DNA of 25,387 bases from a virus: positions 1 through 25,387 of IMG/VR virus record IMGVR_UViG_3300011114_000318; one strand, 5' to 3'. Positions 832-20,293 of this stretch are shown piece by piece (the stretch's first letter is position 1; each line of letters opens with the position of its first letter). A model generated the notes under the pieces. That model made no database searches. It worked only from the letters and a program-made list of their open reading frames with translations, and was not told where the DNA came from. The position numbers were made by a program, and so were the translations under genes.

Positions 832-844
832 AAACTACCTCCAT

Positions 845-871
845 AACCCCCAACCTTGTGAGTTGAGGGTT
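845..871 (-). terminator. Stem-loop just after the major capsid gene stop (terminator-like)
   Basis: The 10-bp arms 845-854 and 862-871 pair completely on the minus-strand RNA with one G-U wobble, around a 7-nt loop. The stem begins 12 bases after the capsid stop codon. The bases after it contain TTTT only about ten positions away, so termination would be weak. A terminator or 3'-end stabiliser that raises capsid mRNA over downstream genes fits the position, as an inference. Confidence 0.45.
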
Positions 872-883
872 AAAGCCGTAGTC

Positions 884-1798: not shown

Positions 1799-1811
1799 GT
1801 TTTAGCCCTCC

Positions 1812-2411: not shown

Positions 2412-2441
2412 TAGCTTTCTCCTAAGGGGTTAAAAAGTCTG

Positions 2442-3544: not shown

Positions 3545-3551
3545 GTTGAGG

Positions 3552-3581
3552 ATTATAACCCCAATTTTTAGAAAAATAAAG
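3552..3581 (-). promoter_or_regulatory. Candidate promoter of the GIY-YIG gene
   Basis: On the minus strand a perfect TATAAT (3557-3552) lies in an A/T-rich 41-bp gap, 7 bases before the endonuclease ATG. A -35 is poor (TTTATT at 17-bp spacing). If used, transcription would begin at about the ATG itself, giving a leaderless message, which would fit the missing ribosome binding site. This is an inference from sequence. Confidence 0.4.
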
Positions 3582-3585
3582 TTTT

Positions 3586-4500: not shown

Positions 4501-4513
4501 TTCTCATCTCCTT

Positions 4514-4921: not shown

Positions 4922-5102
4922 TGTTTTTCTCCTCTTCCAAAATGGTAAAAAGTACATCTAACGCTGCGTCATAACCGGATACGACGCCCACGCGATAGCC
5001 GTACTCAAAGCTATCGCGGTTTTGGGGACGCTTGAGTGATTCAAGCGCAAAACTTGCTTGCGCGGCTTTCAGCCGATTTAGCAAAACTGTCTCTATATTC
5101 AC
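4905..5102 (-). CDS. Small protein of unknown function (65 aa)
   Basis: The product is helical and charged (NRLKAAQASFALESLKRPQ, GYDAALDVLFTILEEEK) with no known motif. It starts at GTG 5102, whose GTGA overlaps the stop of the 42-aa gene upstream, and its end overlaps the co-chaperonin start by 17 bases. The tight coupling on both sides argues that it is translated. It could be an accessory to head assembly, but nothing in the sequence shows this. Confidence 0.72.
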   Translation of the reverse strand: MNIETVLLNRLKAAQASFALESLKRPQNRDSFEYGYRVGVVSGYDAALDVLFTILEEEKNSGNDL

Positions 5103-5227
5103 GCAGGCGTCTTTGGCATCGCGGGTGGTGCTGGCAAAGTCTGGCCAGTTACAGGCTCTCCTGCTGCCATGCGGTGGTGCTGCTTGACTGCGCCGTTATT
5201 CATTGGGACTGCGGGGGTATTGTTCAT
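5099..5227 (-). CDS. Tiny proline- and alanine-rich protein (42 aa)
   Basis: The frame runs from ATG 5227 (preceded by AGGAG with 8-nt spacing) to the TGA at 5101-5099, which overlaps the GTG start of the next gene by four bases. The product begins MNNTPAVPMNNGAVKQHH and ends in a Pro-rich tail (LPAPPAMPKTPA), probably disordered. It follows the portal gene by 18 bases. The ribosome site, the overlap and the lack of other coding sense in this stretch support it. No function can be named. Confidence 0.68.
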   Translation of the reverse strand: MNNTPAVPMNNGAVKQHHRMAAGEPVTGQTLPAPPAMPKTPA

Positions 5228-5245
5228 CGTGGTTTCTCCTATGTG

Positions 5246-7789
5246 TCAAGCGCCGGGATTGAGGCCTGTACCTGTTGAGACGGCAAACTTCTCGCCAGTG
5301 GCTAGCTCGGTTGCGGCTAGGCGCAGGGCGGTATTGTTGTCGTCTGTGTTCATTTGATAGCGGGTCTCTAGTTCGACCTTTGTGCGTTCGTTTTCTGCCT
5401 GCTCTTTGAGCATGGTTTGCTGAGCATCCTCTGCCATCTTTTGTGCATTTTGCTGTGCATCTTGCTGCACTTTGGCTTGCTCAAGTTGTAACTTGGCTTG
5501 CTCCAGTTGCAGCTTGGACTGCTCAGCCTGCATTTTTGCTTGCTCAGCTTGAGCGGCTTGTTGCATTTTTGCTTGGTCAAGTTGCGTGCGCTGCTGGAGT
5601 GCTTGGCCTTGCAACTGTGCATTCATCTGAGCTATCTGCATGCTGCTGTCTGGCGGCATCGGTGGCTGGGGTTTGAACTGCTGAGCGACTTGATCAATCT
5701 GAGCCAACTCTTGGGCAAACCCGTTAAGTTGCTGCTCAATGATTTCCTGCACTTTAAGAATCACCTTGACCTGCTGTTCTGCTTCTTTCTCAATCAAGTC
5801 TTTCTTCTGAGCAACATCTACCGCCTCGTGAGCCTCGGTCAGATAATAGTTCAGCAGGTGGTCGCGCAGGTGAGTGGCCATTGGGAACATGTAGGTTTTG
5901 ACGATAGCCGGGTTCTGGCCAAACAGCGGTGACTTGAGAAACGCTAGGTGGGTCTTGAGGTGGGCAATGTGATCTTGCTGCGGCAGAACATAAACAGGAG
6001 TTCCCATTGTGGCGGCCACGTTCTCACTTACCGGGTCAATGTCCTCGGTGCCGGGCGCGGGTTGTAGTACATCGTCAGCGCTGATCTTTAGCGTGCGCAA
6101 AAACAATTGCTCAATTTTGCGCTGGTCGTACATCTGCGGCATAGTGGCCGAGCGTTGCATGAGCGCCTGGGTTTGAGCAAAACGCTGTGTCTCAGAAAAG
6201 ATTGCCGGGTCACTTACCGGCACCACGTCCATTGGGCCGTCAAAGTCTTCAGGCTTGACATCCAAACCGGATGCCTGCGCTTCAATGTCTTCAATGGTCA
6301 AGTAGGCACTGTTGATGCGGTGCAGGATCTTGAACACACGGCTCATTGAGCTATGGATGCGCGAGTGGATGCTACTGAAGACCACCATGCCCTGCTCAAT
6401 CAGGGCCATCGTGGTGCCAACCGGCTGTGCCTGATTGGCATCGCTCAGCTTCTCAAAGCTGGTCTGTACAACGCCCTTGCCGGCATCAACCACAAAGCCT
6501 AGCAGTTGGAACAGCACAGGGCTCGGCCCATTGAACGGTAGCGGCATGGCCAGCTTGCGCACGTCATCAATCAGCGCACCGCCTTCAAGCTCTACAACCT
6601 CGGTAGGTTGCACGTTAAGCGTCTGGCCACCAGGCCCACCCTTTAGCTTGAGCAGGGTTGGGATGTTCTGAATGTGCGCCGAGTCCAGCAGGGCGCGTAG
6701 TGCGCCGGTAGCTGCTCCTGAAAGGCCACCAATCATGTGGGTCAGGCCGATTGGGTAAGCACCACGCCAAGGCACAAATGGGAACTCCACAATCCAGTCA
6801 AGCTCTACACGGCGAGGATCTTCAGGCTCCCAGTTGCGGTACAGCGCCACGGCCTTGCTGCTGGTCTTGTCAATGCTGATGATGTACGGCTCAACACCAT
6901 CACCAAAGTCTAGGTGGGTGTAGATCTCAAAAATGGTGCGCAGGCCGTCTTCATTGTAGGAGGTGTCTTTGCGCCCCTCAATTTTGTCATTGGCGATCGA
7001 TGCCTTGCTGAAGTCTGGCTGTTCTGGCGAGCCAAGGTCAACGTCGATGTACATCTCGCACTTGACCCGACGTTGGTACTCCATCTCGGTCACATACTGG
7101 ACGTGGGTTTTGCGCTCCGCACTATAGAAGTTAGTGGCCGCAAAGGGTAGGTACACGTCATCAATGGGGATGAACTCAGCGCACGGGCGCAGGTATTGAG
7201 CGCTCCACATCATCTTGAGGTACTGAGCGCCACCCAACGGTAGTTGCGTACTGAGCTGCTCTAACTCGCCCCTAAACTCCGGCATCTGCTCAGTAGTCTG
7301 CCAGTTCATAAAGTCAGTCTTGCGCTCGGCTTTGGCGACCTTGTCCTTCTCTTTCTCGCCAAGGATCTTGCTCTTGACCGGGCCACCTGGGGGGAAGATC
7401 TCCTTCATCACTCGTGAGGAGAAGTCAACACAGGCTTCCACCAGCATGGGGTGGACGACCTTTGTTGAGCCGGTGAACTGCGCCCCGCCCGGTGCGTCAT
7501 CGCCTAAACCAGTGCGGCGTAAGCCTTCCTCGTACAGCTTATCCCGCTTCTGTCGTGCGTCTTTGTCCTTGGCAACCTTGTCTAGCAATTCTGTGACAGC
7601 ATCGCTCAAGTCACCTTGGTCAACTTCATCAACAATATTGGCAAAGTGCGCTTGCTTTTGACGTTGGTCGTCCTCGTTCTTGAGTTTGACCATTGCGCCG
7701 CCGTCATCAGTATCCTCGGCGTCTGACTCATCATCGTCTACCTCAACGATTTCGTCTTCTTCAATGGTAAGGTCTGTATTTTTAGGCAT
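5246..7789 (-). CDS. Portal protein (head-to-tail connector)
   Basis: This 847-residue protein would form the dodecameric ring through which the terminase packages DNA. It has an acidic N-terminus (residues 9-30), a charged helical segment, then TGSTKVVHPMLVEACVDFSSRVMKEIFPP (about 107-134), like the clip/stem-preceding region of large portals of podovirus-like phages. PFVPWRGAYPIGLTHMIGGL and VGTTMALIEQG are typical conserved blocks. The C-terminal 130 residues are Gln-rich coiled coil with a perfect heptad repeat. Position between terminase and scaffold supports the call. ATG 7789 is preferred over the in-frame TTG 7810; it overlaps the end of the preceding gene by 8 bases, with only a weak upstream GAAAG. 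Family assignment is by pattern, not search. Confidence 0.8.
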   Translation of the reverse strand: MPKNTDLTIEEDEIVEVDDDESDAEDTDDGGAMVKLKNEDDQRQKQAHFANIVDEVDQGDLSDAVTELLDKVAKDKDARQKRDKLYEEGLRRTGLGDDAPGGAQFTGSTKVVHPMLVEACVDFSSRVMKEIFPPGGPVKSKILGEKEKDKVAKAERKTDFMNWQTTEQMPEFRGELEQLSTQLPLGGAQYLKMMWSAQYLRPCAEFIPIDDVYLPFAATNFYSAERKTHVQYVTEMEYQRRVKCEMYIDVDLGSPEQPDFSKASIANDKIEGRKDTSYNEDGLRTIFEIYTHLDFGDGVEPYIISIDKTSSKAVALYRNWEPEDPRRVELDWIVEFPFVPWRGAYPIGLTHMIGGLSGAATGALRALLDSAHIQNIPTLLKLKGGPGGQTLNVQPTEVVELEGGALIDDVRKLAMPLPFNGPSPVLFQLLGFVVDAGKGVVQTSFEKLSDANQAQPVGTTMALIEQGMVVFSSIHSRIHSSMSRVFKILHRINSAYLTIEDIEAQASGLDVKPEDFDGPMDVVPVSDPAIFSETQRFAQTQALMQRSATMPQMYDQRKIEQLFLRTLKISADDVLQPAPGTEDIDPVSENVAATMGTPVYVLPQQDHIAHLKTHLAFLKSPLFGQNPAIVKTYMFPMATHLRDHLLNYYLTEAHEAVDVAQKKDLIEKEAEQQVKVILKVQEIIEQQLNGFAQELAQIDQVAQQFKPQPPMPPDSSMQIAQMNAQLQGQALQQRTQLDQAKMQQAAQAEQAKMQAEQSKLQLEQAKLQLEQAKVQQDAQQNAQKMAEDAQQTMLKEQAENERTKVELETRYQMNTDDNNTALRLAATELATGEKFAVSTGTGLNPGA
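5462..5545 (-). repeat. Four tandem 21-bp units coding Gln-rich heptads in the portal C-terminus
   Basis: The portal residues about 749-776 consist of four 7-residue units of the form EQ(A/S)K(M/L/V)Q(A/L/Q). At DNA level each 21-bp unit ends in a GCTTGCTC-like block on the plus strand, with unit-to-unit differences. The periodicity suits a coiled coil. Copy number could vary by slippage or unequal recombination. Confidence 0.8.
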
Positions 7790-10700
7790 ATGCACTTTCA
7801 CGTTGCGCAATTATTTGCTGGATGTTTTCAGGATCGTAATCATCATCCAAGCCGGCAATGATCTGTTTGATCTTAATCGGGTCAAAGTGGTTTGAGACTA
7901 AGCCGCCTTGGGCGTAGTTAGTAGGATCAAGATATTCTTGCTCCCTGCCGACAATGTGTCCTCGGCTGTCGTACTTTAATCGCTGGCCTTCTGGCGTAAT
8001 GCTGTTATGCAAGCGTTGTAAGTCTTCTCCGCTGGCCCAGATTGGAACTTCCAAGCCTGCATCTTGAATCATTTTAAGTTCATTTGAGTTGAACGCATCC
8101 AAAGTGGGGCGCAACCCAGTATTCCTTAAGTCAACCGCATTAACGTCAGACCAATTGCTGCCCTTCACGAAGTCTTGGATGTAGGGCAGGTACTCCTCAT
8201 TGGGTGCGCGGTTGCCTTTGCCTTTGATTTGGCTGATGCTTTCTTTAGATTCTTCAGGGTAAATTTTTTCAGCTTGCCGCAACGCATCTTCAGCCGTTTT
8301 GCCTTCTTTTTCTAATTGCGCAGCTAAAAATCCAATTTTGTAACGGCGTTGCTCTGGAGTCATTCCTATTTGCTCAACCTCAACCGTTGCATGAGGCGCA
8401 CCCTTGGAGTCAACCAGCGAGTACACCTTGGCCTTGCCGCTCTTGATAGCCTCCCAGCCGCCGTGGCCGTAGCCAGAGCTACCGGCATCACCAGAAGCCT
8501 CAGTCCAGTCAGGATGGCCCTTGGGCGGCTCGTAGCCACGTACTGAGTGTCCCATCGCCTCGGACTCTTGCGCAAAGGATCCGGGCTTGTTGAGTTGAAT
8601 CCATTTGTATCCTTCAGGATACTCTCTGTAAGTAGGCAAACCCTCACGAGCCGCTGCCCTGCTGGCATTCATCTTGGCCGCCAGATCCCGATCGTACTCG
8701 CTGGTGCGGCGAATTGCGTCGGTAATGCTGAATTTGTTGAGTTGCTCTGGGCGAATGCGGCCAGCCGTCACATCTTCACGCAGCACATCCATGATGTGGT
8801 CAAAGCCAAGGTTTTGAGTGTACGTAGAATAAAGTGAGGTGTTTGGGTCCAGCTTGGCAATAAAAGGGTTTTGACGCCCAAGATCCATGTAGTGGTCCAT
8901 CATTGGAGGATGAGAAGCGTGAAACTGATCTTCGGCTTTTAAATAATCCAACCAATTTTGCTCGGCAAACGGAGTTTCACTCTTGTCAAACTCCTCTCTG
9001 GCAAGACGCATCTTGTTTTCAGCCTCAGTAAACTTGGCATATTTCTCCGGCATTCCTTGTATGTCGCCAGCACGGTGCGATGCAATAACCTCGTCAGAAG
9101 ATATCTCCCAAGCCTTGGCCATAGGGGATTGGCCCAAGCCCTCTTCTGGGAAACCCGCTGCTCTGCGCTGTTTTTTTACATCTTCAGTACGGCGCACTTG
9201 CTCGCCACTCAATGGTTCATGTAGGTACTCATCTAAAAGCGCAGGCTTGTGCGAGATGTGATTGACGGCCATCTGTCGCTCTGTGTTTGCTTCAGCCTTT
9301 ATGCGTTCAGCTTCACGCAGCAAGTTGGCTTGCTTACGTGGGTCTGACTCTCCCGTGGCTCGTTGAGCGATGCGTTCAGACTTCTCAATGTCCTTGGCAT
9401 ACTGAGCGTCAATCTCTTGTGCGCGTTTGTCAAACATCAATCGGACCGGGTCGTCAGCCGTGCCCATTTGCTTCTTGACGTAGTTGGTCAGGTTGCTGTC
9501 AACCCAGTTATCAATTGCGGCTTCACCTTTGGTTACGTCAAGCATACGTTGAACACGGTCTCGCTGGTCTTGGCTCAGTGCTGGGTTTTTCAGTAATTCT
9601 TCGTGCTTGGATATTCTTTGAGCAGGCGTTTCACCAACAAAGGTTGACGTTTTCAAAGGCTGCAAGTCCTTCTCAGTCCGCCCGGTCAGGAAGTTCCCCC
9701 CAGGCATTTTGATGACGCCAGGCATCAACCCTTGCCGCTCCAAATATTTCTCGCCTATTCGCACAGCTGTTGGCCCTAGTGCTTGGCCGGTTGCCTTTGC
9801 GCTCTTAATGCCTAGCCTAGCAATGCTTGTGGCCCCCGTGCCGCCAAGCAAGTTACCTGCAGTTGTGAACGCCTTGCCTGTTGGGGTTTCGTTTAGCTGA
9901 GCACCCGGCAGGTACTCGTTGTAGAACTCGGTGGTTGGCAGCTGTGGGGTGGGATCAGCCCTGCTACCGATGCCAAATGCACGAAGAGCAGGGAAGGCTG
10001 TCAATAGTTGTGGCGGCAGTTGGGAGATGCCTGCACGGGCTAAGCCCTCAATGTCTCCTGGCAATCCTGCTGTACCTGCAGCCCAGCCGCGCAGTGCCGA
10101 GAGCGGAGCATTGGCTGCAGCTTCACGGTCTTGCTGCGCACGGCGTGCTTTCATCTGCGGGAATACGCCGAAGGCTGCACCGCCTTCATCCATGTGGACT
10201 GCACCACCCTCCGCAAAACCCTCACGCAGCAAGTGTCGGATGTATTCGTTGTTCAAGGCTTGGCTTGGCAAGCCCTCACCCTCTACGCCAAGAGCAAGGT
10301 CATAGTAGCCGGGGGCTTTGCGCTCTGGATTGTTAGTTTTAAACCGAGCGTGCCAATCCGGCAAGTACACCTCTGTCGGTGTCGGCATCATGTTGTAATT
10401 TAAGTCCTCGCCCTTAATAAGCGTTGGGAAGCCAGGGTGCAGATCAGGCCGATACATTGACTCCGGCTCTAACGAAAACAAGCGTGGCCCAGCAGCATAA
10501 GTCGGCACATCACCACCATGCTGAGTGTGCAACAGGCTTGGCTCGGTCTCACGCTTGAGGATGTCAGTGGGGCGAAAGATCACGCCCCGTCCGCTCTTCT
10601 CGCCGCCAAGAGCAACGCCGCCTAGCCCTGGTGCAATGCCTTGGCCCATCATTGCATCTGCCAGTGCATCACGCTTGTAAAATGTGTCTGCCAACTTCCA

Positions 10701-13181
10701 GATGCCTGGGTCACGGATGTCAACGCCTTCACCAAAGGTCAGCGATAGGTTGTGATTGATTTTCCCAGCCAGTTCGTCAGATAGGTTGCCCTGTTTCATA
10801 GAATCAATAAACCCACGCTTCAGCTTATCAAAAACCACAGGGTTGGTCTTGAGTTGAATCGCTGAACCTAACATCGTCGTCCAGGCGGTGTCAGGTGTCG
10901 TTAGGTTCTTGAGCCTCGAGGCTGCGCCTTCATCCATCACGCCCCAAACCTTGCCGGCATAGGCGGGGTCGGCTTGGCTAAGGGCGGGGAATGGTGCGCC
11001 GCCGATGTTGCCGCCGCCCACACGGGTGCGGTCAGCCTGAGTAGTGGTTGTGCGCTTAAAGCCTTTCTCCATGAGTTGGCCAAGCGCCTCAGATGCTTTG
11101 ACCTGTTCCTGCGACTTAATGAGTTCAGCCGCAGCACGGCCAGCTGCAGCACGTTGAGCGGCAGTTATTGCCTTTTCGCCGCTATTTACTAGCATACCCT
11201 GTAACAACTTAACAACGCCGCCGGATTGGTAAAGTTGCGTGCGCCCTTCAATATCTTCAAGTTTAATTTTCTTAGCGTTAGTAAACATGGGTGCTTTAGC
11301 GCCTGATCCCATTGTTGAGTGTCCGTAAGTTTCTCCCGCAAACGGGTCCATAAGCACCATTTCAGCATGAGGCTCTGCGCCTGTTTGCCTTGCGCGTTTA
11401 TCAGCGTAATAATCAGCAATACGTTTCTGCGGAGAAACAAATAACTCGGGTGTGTCAAGGTTCTCTCCTGCATAACCCCGATAAAACCCTTGCAACATTT
11501 TGTGCTCTTCTGGCACAGCTGGAGCAACCATCGGCTGTCCGTTGCGCTCCAGTATGGTCAGGTTCTTTTCTTCGCCGGGGAAGGTGACAAAGTTGCGGGT
11601 TCCTTGACCACCGCCACGGCTGTTTGCATCTAGGTATTTGATGCCGGGGATGCCCATGCCGCGTAATGTTTCACTGGTTCCGACCTGATAGTTTTCTGAG
11701 TCAAACAGGTCGGGTCTATAGCCCTCATCGCGCATGACCATGCTGTGCAAGTCTTTGCCAGTGATGTTGCTGTCAATCCTGCCAGACTCTTTGCGAACCT
11801 GATTAACGTACTTTTCCCAATCAACATTGTTTGAGTAGTCAACTGGGTCGCCCCCTGTCATCTCGGCCCACTCATCAGCCTCTTGGCGCAATCTCATATC
11901 GGCAATCTTCTCGGCCTCCTTCTGGCTGACGCCGACCTCGTAGTCTGTGCCCTTGAGCGCCTTGATTACATTTGGCTGTTCACTCAATGGCCTATCCCAA
12001 TCAAGCATCTTAGCTATTTGCTCATCGGGTAGGTCTACTTTATAGAGGTTGCCTGATTTTTTATAAATTTCTTTAACATCAATTAAATCTTTCATTGCAT
12101 CATCAAAAGACCCACCATATTTTTGTGCATATAAATCTAATATGTTCATTTCAGGTCTTCCCTGACTTAACATATCTGCAACAAATTCTTGCTTATTTGT
12201 TAGACCACCATGAAGCGTTTTATAAGTTGCCTCTGCTAATTGATATCCCTTTGCCACCGCAGGAGCTTCTGCCGTATATATCCCATGCCCGTACGCCTGC
12301 GCTCCCTCACCAGTGCCAATCTTGCTGGCGTCAAAGCGGTCAAACTTGTGTGGACTCCCGTGGTAGACATCCAACTGAGGCATCAACCCTTGGCGCTGCA
12401 GGTAACCCTCGCCCATCCTTACCGCGGTTGGCCCCAGCGCCCTGGCACCAGCCGCCACTGCTCTAGCTGCTGGCATCGGGTTCAAAGGCACAAAGGCACC
12501 TGCTTGCCCAGCAACTTCACCAATCCTGGACGTTGGCTTGAGTGGCAAATTCTCAAGATAATATTCGGAGCCATAGGGCAGCTGCGGTGCTGGCTCGTAC
12601 TGCGTTTCACCGAACACCTCAGTCGGCATGGGACTTCTACCCATGAAATTCAATGTGTCAGGCAGTAACCCCAGCAATCCTGCCAGCCGCCCTCGGGTGA
12701 TATCCAGCGGAACATTGGCTGATGCCTCACGGTCTTGGAACCTGCGCCTGGGCTTCATCTGAGGAAAAACGCCAAACGCTGCACCTAACTCATCATCCAA
12801 CAGTCCCATGCCGCCACGCCCCATGATTTGAGGCACAGCACGTTCAGCAAGGCGAGCGCCGGCGCGGCCTGCGGCCATAGTCCCTTGGGCAGCAAGTTTG
12901 CCAAGCGCTCCGGCTCCGGGTGCTACTGCCATAGCGGCGTCAAGCACCTCGGGGCGAAACCTTGTGGTGCCGCCAAGTCCGCCAGCGCCGGTAAACAATG
13001 ACCTTCCAGAAGGGTCATAAGACAATCGGTCTATTGTCTCGCTGATGGCTGGCATATCCAGAAACTTTGCGACCCCCTGCATCTGCTGGGTGCGCTCGGG
13101 CGAATAACTCTGCGCCAAGAAGTCGGCCAATGCGCCTAGCGCTGAGTTTCGAGGTGTAGCACGGACTTGATCACGCGGCAT
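7782..13181 (-). CDS. Giant multidomain polyvalent-type protein with ADP-ribosyltransferase-like and PcfJ-like regions (1799 aa)
   Basis: This protein is likely packaged or ejected with DNA and carries several effector-like domains, as in phage 'polyvalent proteins'. In order: Ala/Gly-rich N-terminus (1-130); module A (133-268); an ADP-ribosyltransferase-like domain (270-545: VYHGSPHKF, YGHGIYTAEAP, RGMGIPGIKYLDANSRG, NFVTFPGEE); a second region resembling an ADP-ribosyltransferase fold (556-650: FYRGYAG, LFVSPQKRIADYYA, HAEMVLMDP); an unknown domain (660-985); module B (1001-1154), homologous to module A; a charged helical region (1185-1480); and a PcfJ-like region (1490-1690: AMGHSVRGY, KVYSLVDSKGAPHATVEVEQ, ISQIKGKGNRAPNEEY). 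It starts at ATG 13181 with AAGGTG seven bases upstream and overlaps terL by 11 bases and the portal by 8. No membrane segment is obvious. Catalysis is unproven; domain calls are from memory of patterns. Confidence 0.8.
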   Translation of the reverse strand: MPRDQVRATPRNSALGALADFLAQSYSPERTQQMQGVAKFLDMPAISETIDRLSYDPSGRSLFTGAGGLGGTTRFRPEVLDAAMAVAPGAGALGKLAAQGTMAAGRAGARLAERAVPQIMGRGGMGLLDDELGAAFGVFPQMKPRRRFQDREASANVPLDITRGRLAGLLGLLPDTLNFMGRSPMPTEVFGETQYEPAPQLPYGSEYYLENLPLKPTSRIGEVAGQAGAFVPLNPMPAARAVAAGARALGPTAVRMGEGYLQRQGLMPQLDVYHGSPHKFDRFDASKIGTGEGAQAYGHGIYTAEAPAVAKGYQLAEATYKTLHGGLTNKQEFVADMLSQGRPEMNILDLYAQKYGGSFDDAMKDLIDVKEIYKKSGNLYKVDLPDEQIAKMLDWDRPLSEQPNVIKALKGTDYEVGVSQKEAEKIADMRLRQEADEWAEMTGGDPVDYSNNVDWEKYVNQVRKESGRIDSNITGKDLHSMVMRDEGYRPDLFDSENYQVGTSETLRGMGIPGIKYLDANSRGGGQGTRNFVTFPGEEKNLTILERNGQPMVAPAVPEEHKMLQGFYRGYAGENLDTPELFVSPQKRIADYYADKRARQTGAEPHAEMVLMDPFAGETYGHSTMGSGAKAPMFTNAKKIKLEDIEGRTQLYQSGGVVKLLQGMLVNSGEKAITAAQRAAAGRAAAELIKSQEQVKASEALGQLMEKGFKRTTTTQADRTRVGGGNIGGAPFPALSQADPAYAGKVWGVMDEGAASRLKNLTTPDTAWTTMLGSAIQLKTNPVVFDKLKRGFIDSMKQGNLSDELAGKINHNLSLTFGEGVDIRDPGIWKLADTFYKRDALADAMMGQGIAPGLGGVALGGEKSGRGVIFRPTDILKRETEPSLLHTQHGGDVPTYAAGPRLFSLEPESMYRPDLHPGFPTLIKGEDLNYNMMPTPTEVYLPDWHARFKTNNPERKAPGYYDLALGVEGEGLPSQALNNEYIRHLLREGFAEGGAVHMDEGGAAFGVFPQMKARRAQQDREAAANAPLSALRGWAAGTAGLPGDIEGLARAGISQLPPQLLTAFPALRAFGIGSRADPTPQLPTTEFYNEYLPGAQLNETPTGKAFTTAGNLLGGTGATSIARLGIKSAKATGQALGPTAVRIGEKYLERQGLMPGVIKMPGGNFLTGRTEKDLQPLKTSTFVGETPAQRISKHEELLKNPALSQDQRDRVQRMLDVTKGEAAIDNWVDSNLTNYVKKQMGTADDPVRLMFDKRAQEIDAQYAKDIEKSERIAQRATGESDPRKQANLLREAERIKAEANTERQMAVNHISHKPALLDEYLHEPLSGEQVRRTEDVKKQRRAAGFPEEGLGQSPMAKAWEISSDEVIASHRAGDIQGMPEKYAKFTEAENKMRLAREEFDKSETPFAEQNWLDYLKAEDQFHASHPPMMDHYMDLGRQNPFIAKLDPNTSLYSTYTQNLGFDHIMDVLREDVTAGRIRPEQLNKFSITDAIRRTSEYDRDLAAKMNASRAAAREGLPTYREYPEGYKWIQLNKPGSFAQESEAMGHSVRGYEPPKGHPDWTEASGDAGSSGYGHGGWEAIKSGKAKVYSLVDSKGAPHATVEVEQIGMTPEQRRYKIGFLAAQLEKEGKTAEDALRQAEKIYPEESKESISQIKGKGNRAPNEEYLPYIQDFVKGSNWSDVNAVDLRNTGLRPTLDAFNSNELKMIQDAGLEVPIWASGEDLQRLHNSITPEGQRLKYDSRGHIVGREQEYLDPTNYAQGGLVSNHFDPIKIKQIIAGLDDDYDPENIQQIIAQRESAYA
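8112..8714 (-). other. PcfJ-like domain of the giant protein
   Basis: Residues about 1490-1690 carry the order SFAQESEAMGHSVRGY, then IKSGKAKVYSLVDSKGAPHATVEVE, then ISQIKGKGNRAPNEEYLPYIQDF. This resembles PcfJ-family proteins of conjugative elements and phages, whose hallmark is an MGHC-V motif. Here the usual Cys is Ser (about residue 1545). The function of the family is not established to my knowledge. Confidence 0.5.
9720..10181 (-). repeat. Module B of the duplicated segment in the giant protein
   Basis: Residues 1001-1154 start with GAAFGVFPQMKARRAQQDRE and end with ALGPTAVRIGEKYLERQGLMP. They match module A (12378-12785), which starts GAAFGVFPQMKPRRRFQDRE and ends ALGPTAVRMGEGYLQRQGLMP. 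The middle diverges, though LP.....YN/YL..LP spacing is similar (LPTTEFYNEYLP versus LPYGSEYYLENLP). The DNA has diverged too, so the duplication is old. Confidence 0.85.
11547..12374 (-). other. ADP-ribosyltransferase-like domain of the giant protein
   Basis: Residues 270-545 follow the H-Y-E-type layout of polyvalent-protein ADP-ribosyltransferases: YHGSPHKFDRFD (His274), GHGIYTAE (Tyr302), and after a long insert GIPGIKYLDANSRG then RNFVTFPGEE with acidic candidates Glu537/Glu538. If active, it would transfer ADP-ribose from NAD to a host target early in infection. The insert between the Tyr motif and the C-terminal motifs is coded by an unusually A/T-rich stretch (12001-12240). Confidence 0.6.
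12378..12785 (-). repeat. Module A of the duplicated segment in the giant protein
   Basis: Residues 133-268 form the first copy of the repeated module. Both copies directly precede a different effector-like region (ADP-ribosyltransferase-like after A, helical plus PcfJ-like after B). This suggests a conserved leader or trunk unit to which variable domains are attached; that use is an inference. Confidence 0.85.
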
Positions 13182-14748
13182 AAGGGTTCACCTTGTCTCG
13201 GCTTTTTGGCCGTGGTTCATCAACGTCTTTGGCTTGTGGGAGTTCAAACCATCCATCATCCTTAAGGTAGATGATAGCTTGGGTGAACGTGTCAACATAA
13301 TCATCATGCTCGGCCAGAGGAAACTTGGTAAGCTGTTTGATGAACGCCGCTGCCCAGCTGACAGGCTGTCCGGGGTTGCGCTTTGACTCGGGTATCCACA
13401 ATAGTCCAAGCTCCAAAGTGGGTGCGGCTTGATGCGCACGGCTGATTTTGTCTGCGTTGCCAGGATTATACCCCACTGCAGGCACCCTGGCCAAGCGCAA
13501 ATCCTGCAGCAAAGATTGGCCACTGGCTTTGGCCTCAACCAGAATCCGGTCTGGCCGCCGAGCCCGGGTGGGCATACCGGCACCATTGTTGTTGTCGCCA
13601 CCATACTCGGTCGTCCAGTCTTTGACCGCCTTCGCCCTCAAGTCCGGGTAGCTCAAGTGCTCGTCCCAGGCATCAAGCAACATGCAGTGCCGTTCCTTCT
13701 TGTGCGTGAACACACCCCAAACTGTGCAAGCTGTAGGATCACCTGTAGTTTTTTCAGTAAACGCGCAGTCATAGCTCTGCAATATGTACTCATACTGTGG
13801 CAGCCGGTCAGCGTGTGGCCACTGCTGGAAATGGGCGGTTTTAAGCAGGCCGCCGGTACTAGGCACAGGATCTTGCTGCAGTTGGCCGCTTGTGCCATAT
13901 GAACCGAGTAGCTGTTTTAAGGCTGTGATCTCTACCGGCCCGAAGCGCTCAGGACAGATGAGTTCACCTTTCTTTGTGCGTGGGTCATAAGGACCGAGCA
14001 CCGTCTTGCGTGCTTTGCCATCCCATTCGGCAGGGATGCAGATGTGCTCCCAGCCTTTGATGTCATCGAGTATATGACCGCTGATGTCACGTTCATGTAG
14101 CCGCTGCATCACAACTACCATTGCATCAGTCTTGGGATTGTTCAGCCGTGTGCTCCACACCACATCGAACCACTCCAGCGTGCTCTCTCGCATCGCATCG
14201 GACTGGGCTTCTTGTGCACCGTGCGGATCGTCAAGCACCAATCTAGATCCACCTTCGCCTGTAGCCGTGCCGCCAGGTGACGTGGCTATGCGGTAGCCGG
14301 TCTTGGAGTTCTCAAACCGCTGCTTGGCATTCTGGTCACCTGACAACTCAAACATGCTGCCCCAGCGCTCCTGATACCAAGGCGACTGCACCAAGCGCCG
14401 TGCTTTCAGGTTGTCACGGATGGACAGGTTGCCGGCATAGCTAGCGCACAGGAACTTTGCCTCAGGCGTGGTCAGCCACTCCCACATTGGCCACATGACA
14501 GACACAATGGTTGACTTGGAATGTCTAGGCGGTATGTTAATTAGTAGCCGCCGAATGTCGCCGCATGAGATGGCTTCAAGGTGTTCGCAGATCTCTTGGA
14601 TGTGCCAGCTTTGGATAAACGGTATGCCTGGCTCCACCACGTGCCATGATTGCTTGACAAAGTCGTACAGACTGCCCTCGGCTTTACGCCGCAGCTGCTC
14701 CCGCTGGATCATCTCCAGCACCGCTGCCGGGGTAAGCGGGGCATTCAT
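13171..14748 (-). CDS. terL: Terminase large subunit (packaging ATPase-nuclease)
   Basis: This 525-residue protein docks on the portal, cuts concatemeric DNA and pumps it into the head. The ATPase domain has a Walker A variant NIPPRHSKST (residues 71-80), a Walker B RLVLDDPH (169-176) and a coupling-type motif VVVMQRLHERD (211-221). The RNase H-like nuclease domain has acidic residues at QSYDCAF (Asp327), LVEAKASGQ (Glu405) and HDDYVDTF (Asp482/483/486). Length is normal for the family. ATG 14748 overlaps the small-subunit stop as ATGA; no clear ribosome site is present, so translation is probably coupled. The end overlaps the giant protein's start by 11 bases. Confidence 0.95.
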   Translation of the reverse strand: MNAPLTPAAVLEMIQREQLRRKAEGSLYDFVKQSWHVVEPGIPFIQSWHIQEICEHLEAISCGDIRRLLINIPPRHSKSTIVSVMWPMWEWLTTPEAKFLCASYAGNLSIRDNLKARRLVQSPWYQERWGSMFELSGDQNAKQRFENSKTGYRIATSPGGTATGEGGSRLVLDDPHGAQEAQSDAMRESTLEWFDVVWSTRLNNPKTDAMVVVMQRLHERDISGHILDDIKGWEHICIPAEWDGKARKTVLGPYDPRTKKGELICPERFGPVEITALKQLLGSYGTSGQLQQDPVPSTGGLLKTAHFQQWPHADRLPQYEYILQSYDCAFTEKTTGDPTACTVWGVFTHKKERHCMLLDAWDEHLSYPDLRAKAVKDWTTEYGGDNNNGAGMPTRARRPDRILVEAKASGQSLLQDLRLARVPAVGYNPGNADKISRAHQAAPTLELGLLWIPESKRNPGQPVSWAAAFIKQLTKFPLAEHDDYVDTFTQAIIYLKDDGWFELPQAKDVDEPRPKSRDKVNPYAA

Positions 14749-15221
14749 GCGCCGGGGGAGGCCTTACCCAGCAGGGTCTGCATCTGCACTAACTCTACGT
14801 CGCTCAGTCCCTTGAGATCGACCGCAGCAATCGGTATTGCACTGCCGCCGGGTCCGCTGATCTCACTGCGAGCCAGCTTAGGCACATGATATTCGACCAC
14901 GCTTTGGAACAAGTTGAATGCGCGTTCAGGGTTTGGCCGCGTCACGTAGACTTTGTTGCCCTCGTGATCGTAGACTTGCTTACCGTCGATATCAAGCATC
15001 GGCGTGCCTTCAGCCACAGCATCAAGCCAGCCCGTCAGCCGATGCGCGTTGCCTTCAACAAATTCAGCAATAGCCATTTTGGCAGTCAGCGTCACTTTGT
15101 TGAGAGAACCAACTGGCCTGCCGGACCCAAGCGGCTTTGGCCGGCCCGGCCTAGCACCGCCACCGTTGTTTGATCCAGGCAACGCGCCGACTTTCCTCTT
15201 TACAACTGTTACCAAATCCAT
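14745..15221 (-). CDS. terS: Terminase small subunit (putative)
   Basis: This 158-residue protein directly precedes and overlaps terL (ATGA). It has a Gly/Pro/Arg-rich N-terminus (GARPGRPKPLGSGRPVGSLNK), usual in phage small terminases, then helices and a short beta-like YDHEGNKVYVTRPNPERAFNLF segment. The small subunit recognises the packaging site and activates the large subunit. I see no decisive helix-turn-helix. The start is ATG 15221 with AAAGGG six bases before. It is the first gene of the late block, just downstream of the repeat-rich regulatory region. Confidence 0.7.
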   Translation of the reverse strand: MDLVTVVKRKVGALPGSNNGGGARPGRPKPLGSGRPVGSLNKVTLTAKMAIAEFVEGNAHRLTGWLDAVAEGTPMLDIDGKQVYDHEGNKVYVTRPNPERAFNLFQSVVEYHVPKLARSEISGPGGSAIPIAAVDLKGLSDVELVQMQTLLGKASPGA

Positions 15222-15240
15222 AATAAACCCTTTCGGTCAA

Positions 15241-15300
15241 ATTGTATTCTTTAGATTGTATACCGTATAAAATCATACAGAAAGTCATTTGTAGTCAAAG
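15241..15300 (-). promoter_or_regulatory. Candidate promoter region for the terminase/structural operon
   Basis: On the minus strand this A/T-rich stretch holds TTGACT (15298-15293, part of a TGACTACA repeat), TATGAT 15 bp later, and a TACAAT further on that would give a leader of about 30 nt before terS. The exact -10 cannot be decided by eye. An 11-bp palindrome TATACCGTATA (15259-15269) overlaps the area and could be an operator. Confidence 0.45.
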
Positions 15301-15479
15301 TAGGCATTGTAGTCACGCTGTTTTATTCGGTCGTGGTTTTGCGCCAGCGCTCCCATACACATATCATATATTCCTTAAGATTTGAAGAAAAAAATGACTA
15401 CATTGACTACAAACACCCGTTTCCCCTCTCAGGCGACGTAGTCAACCGCGTTTTTACAGATTGACTACAGATGACTACA
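15290..15479. repeat. Array of TGACTACA repeats (iteron/operator-like)
   Basis: Perfect TGACTACA occurs at 15395-15402, 15404-15411, 15462-15469 and 15472-15479. Its complement TGTAGTCA occurs at 15290-15297 and 15308-15315, and a 7-base match GTAGTCA at 15438-15444. Copies come in pairs with start-to-start spacing of 9, 10 and 18 bp, near one or two helical turns. Between the pairs lies an A/T-rich stretch (15361-15394). Such short paired repeats in the largest intergenic region suggest cooperative binding by a regulator or a replication initiator. Confidence 0.8.
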
Positions 15480-15500
15480 AACCCCAAAATCCGGTACACT
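15471..15500 (+). promoter_or_regulatory. Candidate promoter for the 56-aa plus-strand gene
   Basis: ATGACT (15471-15476), inside a TGACTACA repeat, is followed after 18 bp by GGTACACT with TACACT (15495-15500) as -10. Transcription would start about 20 nt before the ATG at 15528. The same GGTACACT octamer forms the -10 of the candidate leftward promoter at 22126-22133, which supports its use. Confidence 0.4.
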
Positions 15501-15527
15501 ACCTTGCCGTAACAACCGAGACACACC

Positions 15528-15698
15528 ATGAAAAAATTTCTTCCCTCCATGTTGATGCGCGAAAATAAAAGCTACGAACGAACTACGTACATAAACGGCG
15601 ACATTGCCACTGCAGATCTGTTAGACCGTATTGACCAGCTAACGAAAGCGTTAGGGAGGGCGTTAGCAGAGCTTGAGGACATTAAGCAAGACCACTAG
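15528..15698 (+). CDS. Small protein of unknown function (56 aa), opposite to its neighbours
   Basis: The frame starts at ATG 15528 (MKKFLPSMLMRENKSYERTT) and ends at TAG 15698. The N-terminus is basic; the C-terminal half (ADLLDRIDQLTKALGRALAELEDIKQ) looks like an amphipathic helix or coiled coil, so it may oligomerise. It is the only plus-strand gene between two leftward blocks and lies next to the TGACTACA array, so a regulatory role is tempting but unproven. The ribosome site is weak (CGAG, 7 bases before). It converges on the primase gene and overlaps it by four bases, both stops being in one CTAG. Confidence 0.6.
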   Translation: MKKFLPSMLMRENKSYERTTYINGDIATADLLDRIDQLTKALGRALAELEDIKQDH

Positions 15699-17971
15699 GC
15701 CACGACGCGGCGCATGTCCGACTTGGATAGCCCAGCAACGTCGGGCGCCGCAAATATGTGCTTTTTAGTTGGGAATTCCCGCGACGTGAGGCGGCCCATG
15801 TCAGCCCAACCGGCCTCGCGCAGGGCGTGAAATAGCGCCGCCTGGACAATCTTAATGCCCGGCGCCACGGCACCGGACCCTTGCACGCGGTCGCAAATTG
15901 TGTGGAACGGCGAGCCAATCACCCCGGCCGCGAACACGCCCCGGCGCTCGCGGAGCATCTCGACCAATATAGACTCTGCCGTACTCATACCGGCGTCAAT
16001 CATGATGGCCTTCGCCTCAGTCAGGGGCGGCGGGGCGGCGGGGTTGAAAGCGGACACGTCCCGCGCCATTAGCCATGCCGCCACGCCAGCGAAGCCGCCC
16101 CGGTGGTGGTACCAGTTCCACAGGGCGACGGCCTCGGCCTCGGGCAGGCGCCCGGCCTCGGCCCACGCCACGAACCATCGGCGGTCGTCGCTAGGCAACG
16201 AGATCGCCACGCGCTCATTACTGAAGGCGACCACTAGCACTCGGTTGAGGGCCATATAGGGGTGCAGACCCTTCCTGTTGACTGGGAGATATTCGGGCGG
16301 GGCGGCGATGATGGGTTTTAAGTGATTCTCCAGCGCCCGGCGGTCACGGGCCTCAGCCTGGCGTAGCTCGGCGATCTCCATGACCTCACACTCCAGCCCG
16401 TAACCCCATTGGCTAGTCAAATCGTCATTCTTGACGACGGCGCAGTTCAGCTTGGCGGCGCCACCAATGGTCCAAAAAAAAGGCGCCAGAAGCGTATCCT
16501 TGCCGGAGCCTGGCTTGCCGCCCAATAGGACGGCATGGTTGATCTTATGGCCGGGGTACTGGATTTTGTGGGCCAGTACATTAAAAAGATGCTCGCGCTC
16601 AAACTCGACCGGCAGCATCCGAGCGGCGTGACGCAGCCACAGACTGATGTCACAAGCCACAGGCGTCGGTCGGGCGTTGCGCCAGCGGTTGCCGTAGGTT
16701 AGTCCGTCCCGAGTGACCAGCACCGGCTCGCCAGCGGCGTAAGTGACGCCGACCAAGGACCGGGCGCCAGCCGCCTGGCGGTTCTCATCAAAACAGACGC
16801 TGGCCTCAACGCGGCGGTGAGACTTGCCGGTAGCGTGAATTGACACGCATTTGATGTGCCGAAAAACAGCGTTAAAGGTGTTCCGGGACAGTTCGCGGCG
16901 GTCCTGCATATCAAAGAAAGCCTCATCATCTTGCAAGTACGCAAACCGCTCATACCAACCGGATTTCTCGACCCGGCCCAATTCTTGGCGAGAAACCTCA
17001 GCAATGACCTCGGCGGCAGCGTCAGGGTACTCAGGACTAGGTTTAATTTTAGCAAGGGCCAACTCTAAACGGGCGGCCATCAGGTCGTCTCGCAGGCCGG
17101 GCGAATGGCGGGGGCCGCCGTTCTCAGCAACCCACTGCATAAAAGTGTTGCTGTCCAGATCGATGCAGTGGCCATGCATGCAGCAGTAGGCGCGGTTTAG
17201 GGGCATGTAGCGGCCCTCGGGGTTGCCGTCGGTGTGCTCGCTTGAATTAGGGCAGATGACCCCGGCCCAGCCCTCGGCGTTTGGGCGCGAGAGCAAAAGA
17301 CCCTGGTCTGAAAGCCAGGCCAGCACATCGTCGGCGCCGTTGTCGGCCATACGAATTGGCTGGATACTACCGGACTCGGCCGGGCCAGGCTCCACGTCCA
17401 GGGCCGCGCAAATGTCAACCAGCAGATACTCGCGGGTGGGGTGAAACTCAACCAGCCGGGATGCGAAAGCGGCTTTGTCGGGCTTCAAATTGACCGAGCC
17501 GGGCAGTCGGAAGTTGCGGACCGGGTTACATGCGCCGGGGTCGGTATAGCCGGCAGCGGCGATAGCTTTAATGGCGGCGGCAAACTTGCCCTTGGTCGGC
17601 TGTGAACTGAAAACAAATCCCCATTGATAGTTGTTGGGTGATGTCTCCATCACCCATGTCGGTTCAAGCGGCGGCGTTTTGGACTTAGTACCAATATCGT
17701 CCAGCACCATCACGGCCACATACTCACAGTTGGCCGCCGAGGCCGACACGCGGCCATCAACAAAACGGTCGCAGATGAAGGAGGCGGTGTTGCCATACCA
17801 AGCCTCGCCGGCGCGAACGCCGTGCGAGGGCAGGTAGGCAGGCCAGGTGGCCTTGACTGCACCATCGGCGTGGTACTGCGCCTCGCCGCCACGTAGCTGT
17901 GGTTTTTGGCGCACAAACAGCATTGTCTCGCCCTCGGGCGCGAGCGCCGTGATAAACTCTAAAAATTGCAC
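15695..17971 (-). CDS. Primase-helicase (AEP-like primase plus SF3-type DUF5906-like helicase)
   Basis: This 758-residue protein probably primes and unwinds phage DNA. The N-terminal part has VMVLDDIGTK (87-96; primase-type acidic pair) and PVRNFRLPGSVN (150-161), a motif of phage archaeo-eukaryotic-type primases. A zinc-binding-like cluster follows (Cys240, His246, Cys263/264, His266/268, Cys269). The C-terminal helicase has Walker A GGKPGSGKDT (484-493), Walker B-like CEVMEIAEL (528-536), FSNE (583-586) and DDRRWF (595-600). GTG 17971 is the start, with AAAGGAG five bases upstream. It is the last gene of the leftward replication block. Order with polymerase and nuclease genes fits a phage-coded replisome. 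Confidence 0.85.
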   Translation of the reverse strand: MQFLEFITALAPEGETMLFVRQKPQLRGGEAQYHADGAVKATWPAYLPSHGVRAGEAWYGNTASFICDRFVDGRVSASAANCEYVAVMVLDDIGTKSKTPPLEPTWVMETSPNNYQWGFVFSSQPTKGKFAAAIKAIAAAGYTDPGACNPVRNFRLPGSVNLKPDKAAFASRLVEFHPTREYLLVDICAALDVEPGPAESGSIQPIRMADNGADDVLAWLSDQGLLLSRPNAEGWAGVICPNSSEHTDGNPEGRYMPLNRAYCCMHGHCIDLDSNTFMQWVAENGGPRHSPGLRDDLMAARLELALAKIKPSPEYPDAAAEVIAEVSRQELGRVEKSGWYERFAYLQDDEAFFDMQDRRELSRNTFNAVFRHIKCVSIHATGKSHRRVEASVCFDENRQAAGARSLVGVTYAAGEPVLVTRDGLTYGNRWRNARPTPVACDISLWLRHAARMLPVEFEREHLFNVLAHKIQYPGHKINHAVLLGGKPGSGKDTLLAPFFWTIGGAAKLNCAVVKNDDLTSQWGYGLECEVMEIAELRQAEARDRRALENHLKPIIAAPPEYLPVNRKGLHPYMALNRVLVVAFSNERVAISLPSDDRRWFVAWAEAGRLPEAEAVALWNWYHHRGGFAGVAAWLMARDVSAFNPAAPPPLTEAKAIMIDAGMSTAESILVEMLRERRGVFAAGVIGSPFHTICDRVQGSGAVAPGIKIVQAALFHALREAGWADMGRLTSREFPTKKHIFAAPDVAGLSKSDMRRVVA

Positions 17972-17984: not shown

Positions 17985-18012
17985 CGCCGCCCCTGACCGG
18001 GCGGCGTTTTTA
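17985..18012 (+). terminator. Intrinsic terminator-like hairpin reading on the plus strand
   Basis: An 8-bp GC-perfect stem (CGCCGCCC 17985-17992 with GGGCGGCG 17999-18006, 6-nt loop) is followed by TTTTTATTT on the plus strand. No plus-strand gene lies directly before it. On the minus strand the same hairpin sits between the HNH stop and the ribosome site of the primase-helicase gene, three bases from AAAGGAG, so it could instead affect that gene's translation. Confidence 0.6.
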
Positions 18013-18393
18013 TTTGTTTGCGATTAGACCCAGCTTATGCAGCTTGCGATCCGCCATGTTTTCTTTATTTGTTCCGTATTTGAGATTAGATAGCTGGTTG
18101 TTAGTTTTATCTCCATCAAGGTGTCTAATTTCGCTGCGCCCCGTTGTACGTGGCCGCACCCCGGCAAAAGACAACAAAACTAGTTCATGGACGTAAACTG
18201 TTTTTGTGATTCCTGCCCGGGCTAACTTAACGCTAAGGTACGCACCGGAAATAAAAAGTTTTAGTTCACGCCCTTTGTACGTCATTCCCGTATGTCTCCC
18301 ATACGGAACAGACCGGGTCAAAGATCGAATGTGGCCGTAGTTGCTGGCCTCATAAAAGCCTTCATACCCGGGTATTGATGTCCAAAGTTCCAT
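18010..18393 (-). CDS. HNH homing endonuclease with NUMOD4 motif
   Basis: This protein (127 aa from the preferred start) begins MELWTSIPGYEGFYEASNYGHIRSL... which is the NUMOD4 DNA-binding motif (W..I.GYEG.Y..SN.G.IRSL). The HNH part is YVHELVLLSFAG...RHLDGDKTNNQLSNLKYGT, with the His, Asp/Asn and Asn of the beta-beta-alpha metal fold. It would nick or cut a cognate DNA site, usually in a related phage lacking the gene. It lies between the DNA polymerase and primase-helicase genes, a common spot for such elements. ATG 18393 has GGAAG seven bases before; the ATG at 18408 overlaps the polymerase end and is also in frame. Confidence 0.88.
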   Translation of the reverse strand: MELWTSIPGYEGFYEASNYGHIRSLTRSVPYGRHTGMTYKGRELKLFISGAYLSVKLARAGITKTVYVHELVLLSFAGVRPRTTGRSEIRHLDGDKTNNQLSNLKYGTNKENMADRKLHKLGLIANK

Positions 18394-18397
18394 AGCG

Positions 18398-20293
18398 TCA
18401 CTTCCCATATTTATTCATCGTCTTGATTCCAACTGCCAACGGCAGGCCAGCGGCCCACGCAGGCGGCGTGGTCATCACCCTACGCACTTCCTCTTCTGAA
18501 CCGCCCTCGACGACGATCTCGTCGTGGACGTGCAGCACCACACCATCAAGCTGCCGCAGCGCGTAGCGCAGCAAATCATTGGCCACGGCCTGGGTCACGT
18601 TCTCGCAAGCCAGACCGCGCCACAGCCGGGCGCGGGGCCACTCGGTGGCGTCCTGGGCAGGTTTCCAAGCTGACTTGGCGTAGCTGATGCCGTCGTCCTC
18701 CAGCCGGGCGAATGGGTAGCAAAGCACCCGGCCCGAGGGCAAAGAATACCAGAGATGGCGACCGTCGAACAGGTAAGTTACGCGCCCGGCGGTGAACTCC
18801 TGATTCTTATTTCGCATGGCCCTGGTGTACTGCTGCTCAAGCTGCTGCCAGAAGCCAACGGCCCACTGATTGTTGCGGCGCCAGGCGTCCACCATGCGCT
18901 TGGAGTCGGCCTCGGACAGGCGCACACTGTAGATTCTGGCCATCGACGCAAACGCGCCCACGCCACCTGCGAAGCCACAGGCCAGCTCCTGCACCTTGCC
19001 GATCTGGCGCTGGGCCGACTCGCCGTCGCGGTCGTAGTCGGCCTTGATGTCGTCGTAGGTGCGCTGGAAAGTACCGGCGGCGTTGACGATGTAGGGGTCG
19101 AGGCCCGACTCGAAAATGTCTAGCTTGGCCTGGCCCGTACCAGACAACCAAGGGTTTACCCTGGCCTCAATGGATGACCAATCGGCAACAACTAGGTGTT
19201 TACCCTTGGCTGGTATCAGTGCAGGCCGTAGCATCCCCCGGAGGACATCGGTAACTCGCTGGCCAAACTTGGGGACGATGGCGTGACCCCGGCACATTGC
19301 AGCCCTAACATCATCAGGACTTTTCGCGCATTTGCGTGTGAAATTGTGAACTTGCGCCCCGTAGCTACTAGCTCGACCTGTAGCAGACCCTCCGGCAAAG
19401 ACGAAGGCGCCTCGGACTCGGCTGTCCTCCTCGTCGGCGAGTTGGGCGAGTCGGGCGAACTTGGCGACCGATGACGCCCAGAGATCGTCGGCGCACTGGA
19501 TGATTTCTTGGACATCGGGGGGTACTCCTTCACAATTTAGTAGGTTGGCTCTCACGGTCTTGTCGATGCTGACCTTGTCGTCCTTGGTCATCAGGGCACG
19601 GGCCTCGGGGCCAACACGGTCCCAGACCCACTGGCGCATCTTAGGCGACCGCACAGAGGTCAGCTCACCCTTGGACACCTCCTTGACAATCTCGGCGATC
19701 TCAGCGGCCTCTGCGGCGGCGTAGGACACCGCTGCGCGGCACAGCGGCACATCGACCAAGACGCCCCGGTCGTTGATGCGCTCGTTGACGTGGTAGTCAG
19801 CCAGCTCCTCGTCCGACAAGGGGCGCATGGCCTGGCTGATGGCCCTCATGGCCCGGACATCCTGCTCACAATACTGGATCATCTCAGCAGTCAACGCAGC
19901 CGACTCTTGAAAGGGCGGTACGCACATCTTGCGGATGAGCGCAGCGCCCCGGTGGTCTTTCTTCATGCTGGCGCCCATGAACCGGCCCACGTCCTCCAGC
20001 GACCCTGGCGCACAGTTGGCACGGGCCTGCGCGGCGGTGCAGTAGAACTGCTCCAGCGGGATGTTGACCTGCAAGACGTACCAGCAGATGAGCCGCTCAA
20101 AGGCAGCGTTGTGCGCCATGATGCGGTGGCCGGTGAAGTCAGGTAGTGGGCCTGTCGTCCAAGTCTGCACCTCGCCGTCATCGACGGCGTAGGACATGCA
20201 CAGCACCTCGGTCGTGAGGTCTTGCGCGTAGTTGTAGACGCCGCGACTTTTTAGGTCACAGGTGGAGCGGGTTTCAAAATCAAGCCAGATCAT
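18398..20293 (-). CDS. Family A DNA polymerase with 3'-5' exonuclease
   Basis: This 631-residue enzyme replicates phage DNA. The exonuclease has MIWLDFETRS (Asp5, Glu7), MAHNAAFER (59-67) and MIQYCEQDVRAM (138-149). The polymerase has TGRASSYGAQVHNF (305-318), motif A VVADWSSIEARV (368-379; Asp371, Glu376), motif B RQIGKVQELACGFAGG (429-444; Arg429, Lys433) and motif C LHVHDE (587-592). All catalytic positions are intact. There is no 5'-nuclease domain, as in other phage enzymes. ATG 20293 is chosen because the exonuclease motif begins there; ATG 20323 would add ten residues. An HNH gene follows, overlapping or abutting its end. Confidence 0.93.
   Translation of the reverse strand: MIWLDFETRSTCDLKSRGVYNYAQDLTTEVLCMSYAVDDGEVQTWTTGPLPDFTGHRIMAHNAAFERLICWYVLQVNIPLEQFYCTAAQARANCAPGSLEDVGRFMGASMKKDHRGAALIRKMCVPPFQESAALTAEMIQYCEQDVRAMRAISQAMRPLSDEELADYHVNERINDRGVLVDVPLCRAAVSYAAAEAAEIAEIVKEVSKGELTSVRSPKMRQWVWDRVGPEARALMTKDDKVSIDKTVRANLLNCEGVPPDVQEIIQCADDLWASSVAKFARLAQLADEEDSRVRGAFVFAGGSATGRASSYGAQVHNFTRKCAKSPDDVRAAMCRGHAIVPKFGQRVTDVLRGMLRPALIPAKGKHLVVADWSSIEARVNPWLSGTGQAKLDIFESGLDPYIVNAAGTFQRTYDDIKADYDRDGESAQRQIGKVQELACGFAGGVGAFASMARIYSVRLSEADSKRMVDAWRRNNQWAVGFWQQLEQQYTRAMRNKNQEFTAGRVTYLFDGRHLWYSLPSGRVLCYPFARLEDDGISYAKSAWKPAQDATEWPRARLWRGLACENVTQAVANDLLRYALRQLDGVVLHVHDEIVVEGGSEEEVRRVMTTPPAWAAGLPLAVGIKTMNKYGK

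Follow-up and report, generated by a model that had tools for sequence, protein, structure and literature searches.

The locus between a terS-like ORF and the gene of a DUF5906 PrimPol-helicase raises the question of why short repeats are so densely packed at one place of this phage genome. The first-pass annotation of the window (the whole stretch analyzed here, a virus record of 25,387 bases) had suggested a replication origin, an operator that switches late genes, or both. The origin part of this proposal is strongly supported, and the late-gene operator gains no support beyond the position of the array. We consider, with a probability of about 0.88, that the array serves this phage as its replication origin, with the 9-bp units acting as iterons to which the C-terminal winged helix of the phage's own PrimPol-helicase binds.

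The word TGACTACA occurs as six exact copies, all within 15290-15479 (15290 and 15308 on the minus strand; 15395, 15404, 15462, and 15472 on the plus strand), and an exact-word search of the rest of the window found no further copy. In 100 dinucleotide shuffles of the window, the mean is 0.51 copies and a count of six is never attained, in agreement with the annotated density far above chance; the Poisson probability of the array, about 4e-18, assumes independent positions and is an indicative value only. The start-to-start spacings of 18, 9, and 10 bp and the two orientations around an A/T-rich core were confirmed as well. When the array is recast as 9-mers, eight units form inverted arms around this core. 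The arm beside the terS-like ORF (15290..15316, minus strand), recognized by word search and comparison with relatives, consists of three tandem units, TTGACTACA (15290-15298), ATGCCTACT (15299-15307), and GTGACTACA (15308-15316), and is the same arm as ATGCCTACATTGACTACAAA in L006, L016, and L039. The adjoining spacer and core (15317..15393) is, from its base composition, the proposed strand-opening region, and the stretch 15361-15400 is 80% A+T. Word search then gives an opposing pair on the plus strand (15394..15411), ATGACTACA (15394-15402) and TTGACTACA (15403-15411), and an outer plus-strand pair (15461..15479), TTGACTACA (15461-15469) and ATGACTACA (15471-15479). The single inverted unit TTGACTACG (15437..15445, minus strand) between these pairs keeps its position and orientation in relatives, and corresponds to the partial copy that the annotation had listed beside six perfect 8-mers. 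Cumulative GC skew, one of the checks proposed there, is uninformative and gives no sign of an origin at the array. In several contigs, the minimum of AT skew coincides with the array, but gene direction flips there too.

The candidate initiator is a 758-aa DUF5906 PrimPol-helicase of the SF3/D5-like type (15695..17971, minus strand; Pfam DUF5906, E = 1.3e-8; PHROG 1156, DNA primase), and the array lies 216-405 bp past its stop codon. A 56-aa ORF convergent with the helicase gene (15528..15698, plus strand), taken from the ORF list and without family matches in Pfam and PHROG, occupies the spot of a 1.3-4.6 kb block of small genes in relatives. To the right of the array, the minus strand carries the replication module, comprising the PrimPol-helicase, an HNH ORF, PolA, a 249-aa protein (p249), and a DUF2800/PD-(D/E)XK exonuclease, and the SNF2-type helicase of the module is on the plus strand. 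To the left, the minus strand carries the terS-like ORF (14745..15221, 158 aa, start 69 bp from the array), terL, and head genes. Since the terS-like ORF has no Pfam or PHROG match, it is named by its position upstream of terL only, and the genes that relatives carry here are not related to it. Most of the replication module shows 84-97% identity to its equivalent in the closest related phages, whereas none of the compared contigs with this replication module contains a match to the late module (276-15221). The array is therefore located at a mosaic boundary as a member of the replication side, and it remains beside the replication genes where the late module has been exchanged. Replication modules thus pass from one phage body to another, unrelated one, and the putative origin marks the junction. 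A search of 28 records for tyrosine or serine integrases or resolvases found none, an absence in records that is not proof of a lytic life style; terL and capsid-type genes are present in the window. Two further ORFs, an HNH endonuclease ORF between the PolA and helicase genes (18010-18408, PHROG match) and an ORF among the head genes that by eye resembles a GIY-YIG endonuclease (2972-3544), are likely homing endonucleases.

The first query of IMG/VR gave 363 relatives of the helicase. Arrays of TGACTACA are present in 14 of the first 80 loci, and most of the others hold an array of a different word at the equivalent place; the repeats are thus retained among relatives rather than lost. The words differ by clade and include TTGACTACA, TTGTCCACA, TAGCCAACA, TGACCCAAA, and TGGCACACA, with ATGACCACA, TTGCCCAAA, TGACCTAAA, TGACTAACA, TTGCCTACA, and TTGCCCTCA among the further ones and TGGCACACA/TGACCCACA/CTGCCCACA forming a group. 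A word-blind detector, which was supplied with no word and looks for inverted pairs of tandem 9-mers downstream of the helicase, scored at least 21.5 in 89 of 135 scanned loci versus a maximum of 18 in 20 shuffled controls. Two of the 89 cores (L220 and L236) are GC-rich tandem repeats and were dropped. About one third of the scanned loci have no clear core, partly owing to early contig ends or over-degenerate words. The orientation pattern ---+--+++ (on the helicase strand) recurs with different words. A search immediately 3′ of the helicase gene found no arrays in relatives, because the array is further off there (median distance 2.5 kb, up to 4.6 kb); in the window, it lies directly 3′ of the gene. 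The window is without the small-gene block of the relatives, yet it has retained the word. The scan of genome contigs gave a single MAG contig. Arrays of TGACTACA were also seen near a BT4734-N/PriCT_2/VapE-like helicase, with a closely similar layout (L139 6667-6892), near a replication protein of another family (L131 7515-7633), near a 619-aa DUF5906 protein (L157 3539-3698), and near a PriCT_2 protein (L160 3236-3337). The presence of such arrays beside other replication-protein families suggests a wider origin type or convergence.

In this set of phages, the repeat word follows helicase residues 727-729 and 734, which belong to the wing of the C-terminal winged helix. When 15 phages with TGACTACA were compared with 26 phages with TGNCNCACA (helicase identity 84-100%), the discrimination was concentrated in the last 80 residues of the helicase. 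Across the helicase, PolA, p249, and DUF2800, perfect separation was found only at helicase columns 727, 728, and 729, which are Arg-Leu-Thr in the TGACTACA phages versus Leu-Val/Ile-His in the TGNCNCACA phages, and no column of PolA, p249, or DUF2800 separates the two groups perfectly; SNF2 has one separating column, a conservative one with few rows. In a relatedness-corrected test with 63 non-redundant loci, in which overall relatedness was regressed out, columns 734 (the top column) and 729 correlated with word distance at r = 0.48 and 0.45, compared with a mean of 0, a standard deviation of 0.05, and a maximum of 0.22 for helicase columns 1-640 and a maximum of 0.143 under label permutation. 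In the window, the putative specificity codons 727-729 (Arg-Leu-Thr; covariation and model) are at 15785..15793 and codon 734 (Pro) is at 15770..15772, all on the minus strand.

One relative provides a natural exchange of these residues. Outside 727-729, the L015 helicase is 98.5-98.7% identical to those of the TGACTACA-type L014 and L018, and its C-terminal region matches the one of the TGACTACA-type L002 at 99% identity. At 727-729, it has LVH in place of RLT, with the codons GGG TTA GTA CAC as in L010, and its iterons are of the CTGCCCACA type at matching positions and orientations. Judged from its sequence, L015 is a recombinant with a natural three-residue swap, in which the array has switched too. 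In the converse control, the terminase genes of G019 and G021 are nearly identical, and the two phages differ in both the helicase tip and the word. Since Ala729 accompanies several related words, residue 729 alone is not the whole code; residues 727, 734, and perhaps 748 add to it. Covariation links the iteron word to residues 727-729 and 734 of the helicase, and since the word changes in step with three or four residues of the helicase tip, the recognition code seems readable from natural variation.

A forecast from the word/residue table paired Lys729 with TTGTCCACA, Ala729 with TAGCCAACA and TGACCCAAA, and His729 with TGGCACACA. It was applied to new contigs found by repeat word alone, which gave at least 111 readable helicases and many loci without a helicase in reach. 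Among the matches listed, the expected residue 729 was present in 110 of 111 readable helicases (Lys729 in 37/37 for TTGTCCACA, Ala729 in 33/33 for TAGCCAACA and 39/40 for TGACCCAAA, and His729 in 1/1 for TGGCACACA). For TGACTACA, RLT was found in 12/12, six of which are new contigs. On a tree built with FastTree from helicase residues 100-640, with the C-terminus excluded, residue 729 and the word class each changed about 18 times. Independent pairs on the tree agreed in 7/7 cases for both Lys729/TCCACA and Asp734/(G,A)TCCA (p = 0.016 each), p-values that lend modest support because of the FastTree build and because the word classes were chosen after the table had been seen. The other pairings had too few pairs, and Ala729 had one contrary pair.

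AlphaFold2 models place the winged-helix domain, the proposed iteron-binding domain, at codons about 664-745 (15737..15982, minus strand), and in the model of the C-terminal part the mean pLDDT across most of this domain is about 95. Residues 727-729 end strand β2 at the start of the wing and residue 734 is in the wing loop; none is in the modeled recognition helix. The best Foldseek match of the full model is the C-terminal region/ring of NrS-1 polymerase (6k9c, E = 1.8e-14), which is also the only significant PDB sequence match of the initiator, and further matches include poxvirus D5/E5 and others such as PriRep1. The AEP domain matches 6zp9. In Pfam, the window helicase has DUF5906 over its cut-off, RepB_primase just under its own, and no TOPRIM match. 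The isolated C-terminal domain has no significant PDB match by Foldseek (best E = 0.15), the weak matches including several winged-helix regulators. Stand-alone copies of the winged helix, such as nuclease-fused ones, were not clearly present, and nearly all of the 20 helicase-less matches seem to be cut by contig ends (L414 aside).

Several known systems resemble this arrangement. PICI origins consist of two iteron sets flanking an A/T-rich region (PMC6092414). In SaPIs/PICIs, the short iterons are oppositely oriented and located 3′ of the initiator gene, and the origin is recognized by the C-terminal domain of this initiator, a helicase that in some cases carries a fused primase (PMC6092414, PMC7581432). 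The window shares the two opposed iteron sets, the A/T-rich region, the 3′ location, and the helicase initiator, and covariation points to the C-terminal domain as the part that sets origin specificity. However, the replicons here are phages with their own capsid and terminase genes, rather than PICI-type satellites with an integrase, att sites, and no full structural module; no integrase was found in the 28 records, and genes separate the helicase from the origin in relatives. The P4 repeat word and the two-site ori1/crr layout differ from the array here. The P4 α protein binds origin repeats through the winged helix of a primase-helicase initiator, a mode of recognition that is also predicted here, but α has a TOPRIM primase (PMC4234260), whereas the initiator here has an AEP PrimPol and no TOPRIM-helicase fusion. 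The DUF5906 PrimPol-helicase of NrS-1 is the closest solved structure, but the accessible part of its paper describes a Tail domain of novel fold and reports no iteron origin. The pRN1 ORF904 and AEP-SF3 phages such as BIP-1 share the fusion of an AEP primase with an SF3 helicase and a proposed origin 3′ of the gene, but that origin is a large stem-loop rather than iterons (PMC4234260).

Among other functions, the one that survives best is a transcriptional operator only, at which the helicase or another phage protein would repress or switch the promoters from which the small-gene block and the late genes are divergently transcribed, while replication starts elsewhere. The array lies between divergently oriented genes, and a LexA box in the core of 25 of 87 relatives, versus 0.78 expected, suggests promoters there. 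However, only one promoter-like match was found in 15150-15750, versus 0.8 expected in shuffles; the earlier proposal that several copies act as -35 boxes is therefore weak, and a promoter array was rejected. Moreover, the protein that covaries with the word is the replicative PrimPol-helicase, and PICI origins are documented to have this layout of inverted arms around an A/T-rich core. A late-gene operator also fits poorly with the word being unchanged when the late module is wholly replaced (window versus G021) and altered while TerS and TerL stay 96% identical (G019 versus G021). The promoter/late-operator idea is not supported, and an operator-only function is improbable; a second role of the array in autoregulation is possible.

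The same module swaps bear on a packaging site (pac/cos) bound by the small terminase. In the window, no more than 70 bp separate the end of the array from the start of the terS-like ORF, and in G021 the array ends just ahead of the ATG, but one word is found with unrelated terminase modules in these two genomes and different words with the 96% identical pair. Since the site sequence does not track the terminase, a TerS-bound site was rejected and has very little chance of being correct. DnaA boxes, bound by the host's DnaA or by a DnaA domain IV protein that the phage encodes, are just as improbable. The words do resemble TTATCCACA, with exact TTATCCACA units in L057 and L240 and the near form ATATCCACA in L053, and MW202483 encodes a DnaA_C protein nearby; however, DnaA_C is in none of the 48 other records searched, the window included, and a phage-encoded protein was rejected for this occurrence in one of 49 records. 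Words such as TAGCCAACA or TGACCCAAA, which track a phage protein, misfit host DnaA, whose specificity is to our knowledge near universal. The DnaA and TerS readings are thus disfavored. A different phage regulator, with the helicase tip covarying merely by linkage, might be sought among the small genes that adjoin the array in relatives, but is very unlikely given that the window keeps the word without these genes, that the covariation is confined to 727-729/734 with the rest of the helicase and PolA non-discriminating, and that L015 alters three residues inside an otherwise TGACTACA-type helicase.

The origin reading is further favored by the same array recurring downstream of the same helicase and by the word and the helicase C-terminus changing together. 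Points that weigh against it are the GC skew, the location of the specificity residues outside the recognition helix, the isolated C-terminal domain's lack of a significant PDB match, the scanned loci with no clear core, and the several words that share Ala729. From these analyses, we infer helicase-iteron binding, core melting, and a replication start at the array. The PrimPol-helicase, encoded next door, would bind the iterons via its C-terminal wing, and its subunits would assemble on both arms, which face in opposite directions. The strands of the A/T-rich core that the arms flank would then open, the helicase rings would load, and copying would begin with the fused primase and the neighboring PolA. 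This order of steps is proposed because the SaPI/PICI and P4 initiators set a precedent for it.

We give even odds to a broader interpretation, in which the origin is re-programmable. Wing residues 727-729 and 734 would form a compact code for the 9-bp iterons, and the initiator and the whole array would switch jointly and repeatedly, as the number of changes on the tree suggests. Gene conversion over a very short tract, as in L015, would account for some of the switches, and the result would be replicons that are mutually exclusive. The pressure may come from co-infecting phages, satellites, or origin-cutting nucleases, for the last of which the ICP1/PLE conflict is a precedent (PMC8263062). 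A search of the open literature found no mapped origin for tailed phages with DUF5906 PrimPol-helicases. Judged from that literature, this kind of origin is already known, and what appears new is its widespread, fast-switching form in phages without a detected integrase and the mapping of its specificity onto a small number of residues. The layout with iteron arms on both sides of an A/T core, once described as private to PICIs, is common here in tailed phages with DUF5906 PrimPol-helicases. The natural variation of these phages resembles a ready-made experiment, in which over ten words pair with a handful of residues, three residues have been exchanged naturally, and the forecast was borne out; it opens a way to test how a replication initiator shifts its target without losing function, and is a source of orthogonal initiator-origin pairs.

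Other elements were noticed around the arrays. The LexA (SOS) boxes are perfect matches to CTGT-N8-ACAG, often CTGTATATATATACAG, in or beside the A/T-rich core (L004, L005, L008-L012, L020-L027, L029, L034, L037, L041, L042, L065, L071, L227, L228, and L230), and are absent from the core of the window. They may make replication or early transcription respond to damage of the host DNA, and no integrase was detected in the phages that carry them. In phages with Lys729 and Asp734, the host DnaA box units (L057 and L240) or the close form (L053) lie beside TTGTCCACA-type units. MW202483 (L082), an outlying phage, encodes its small DnaA domain IV protein (Bac_DnaA_C) at 7083-7379 on the minus strand and has its own repeat arrays of the ACTACCAA and ATGTAAAC type. 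In many relatives, a GC-rich short tandem repeat that varies by phage (CTGGCTGC, CGACCGCC, and others) is located between the iterons and the terminase genes, as at L029 11171-11357, L034 11580-11692, L026 10443-10564, and L008 6270-6420.
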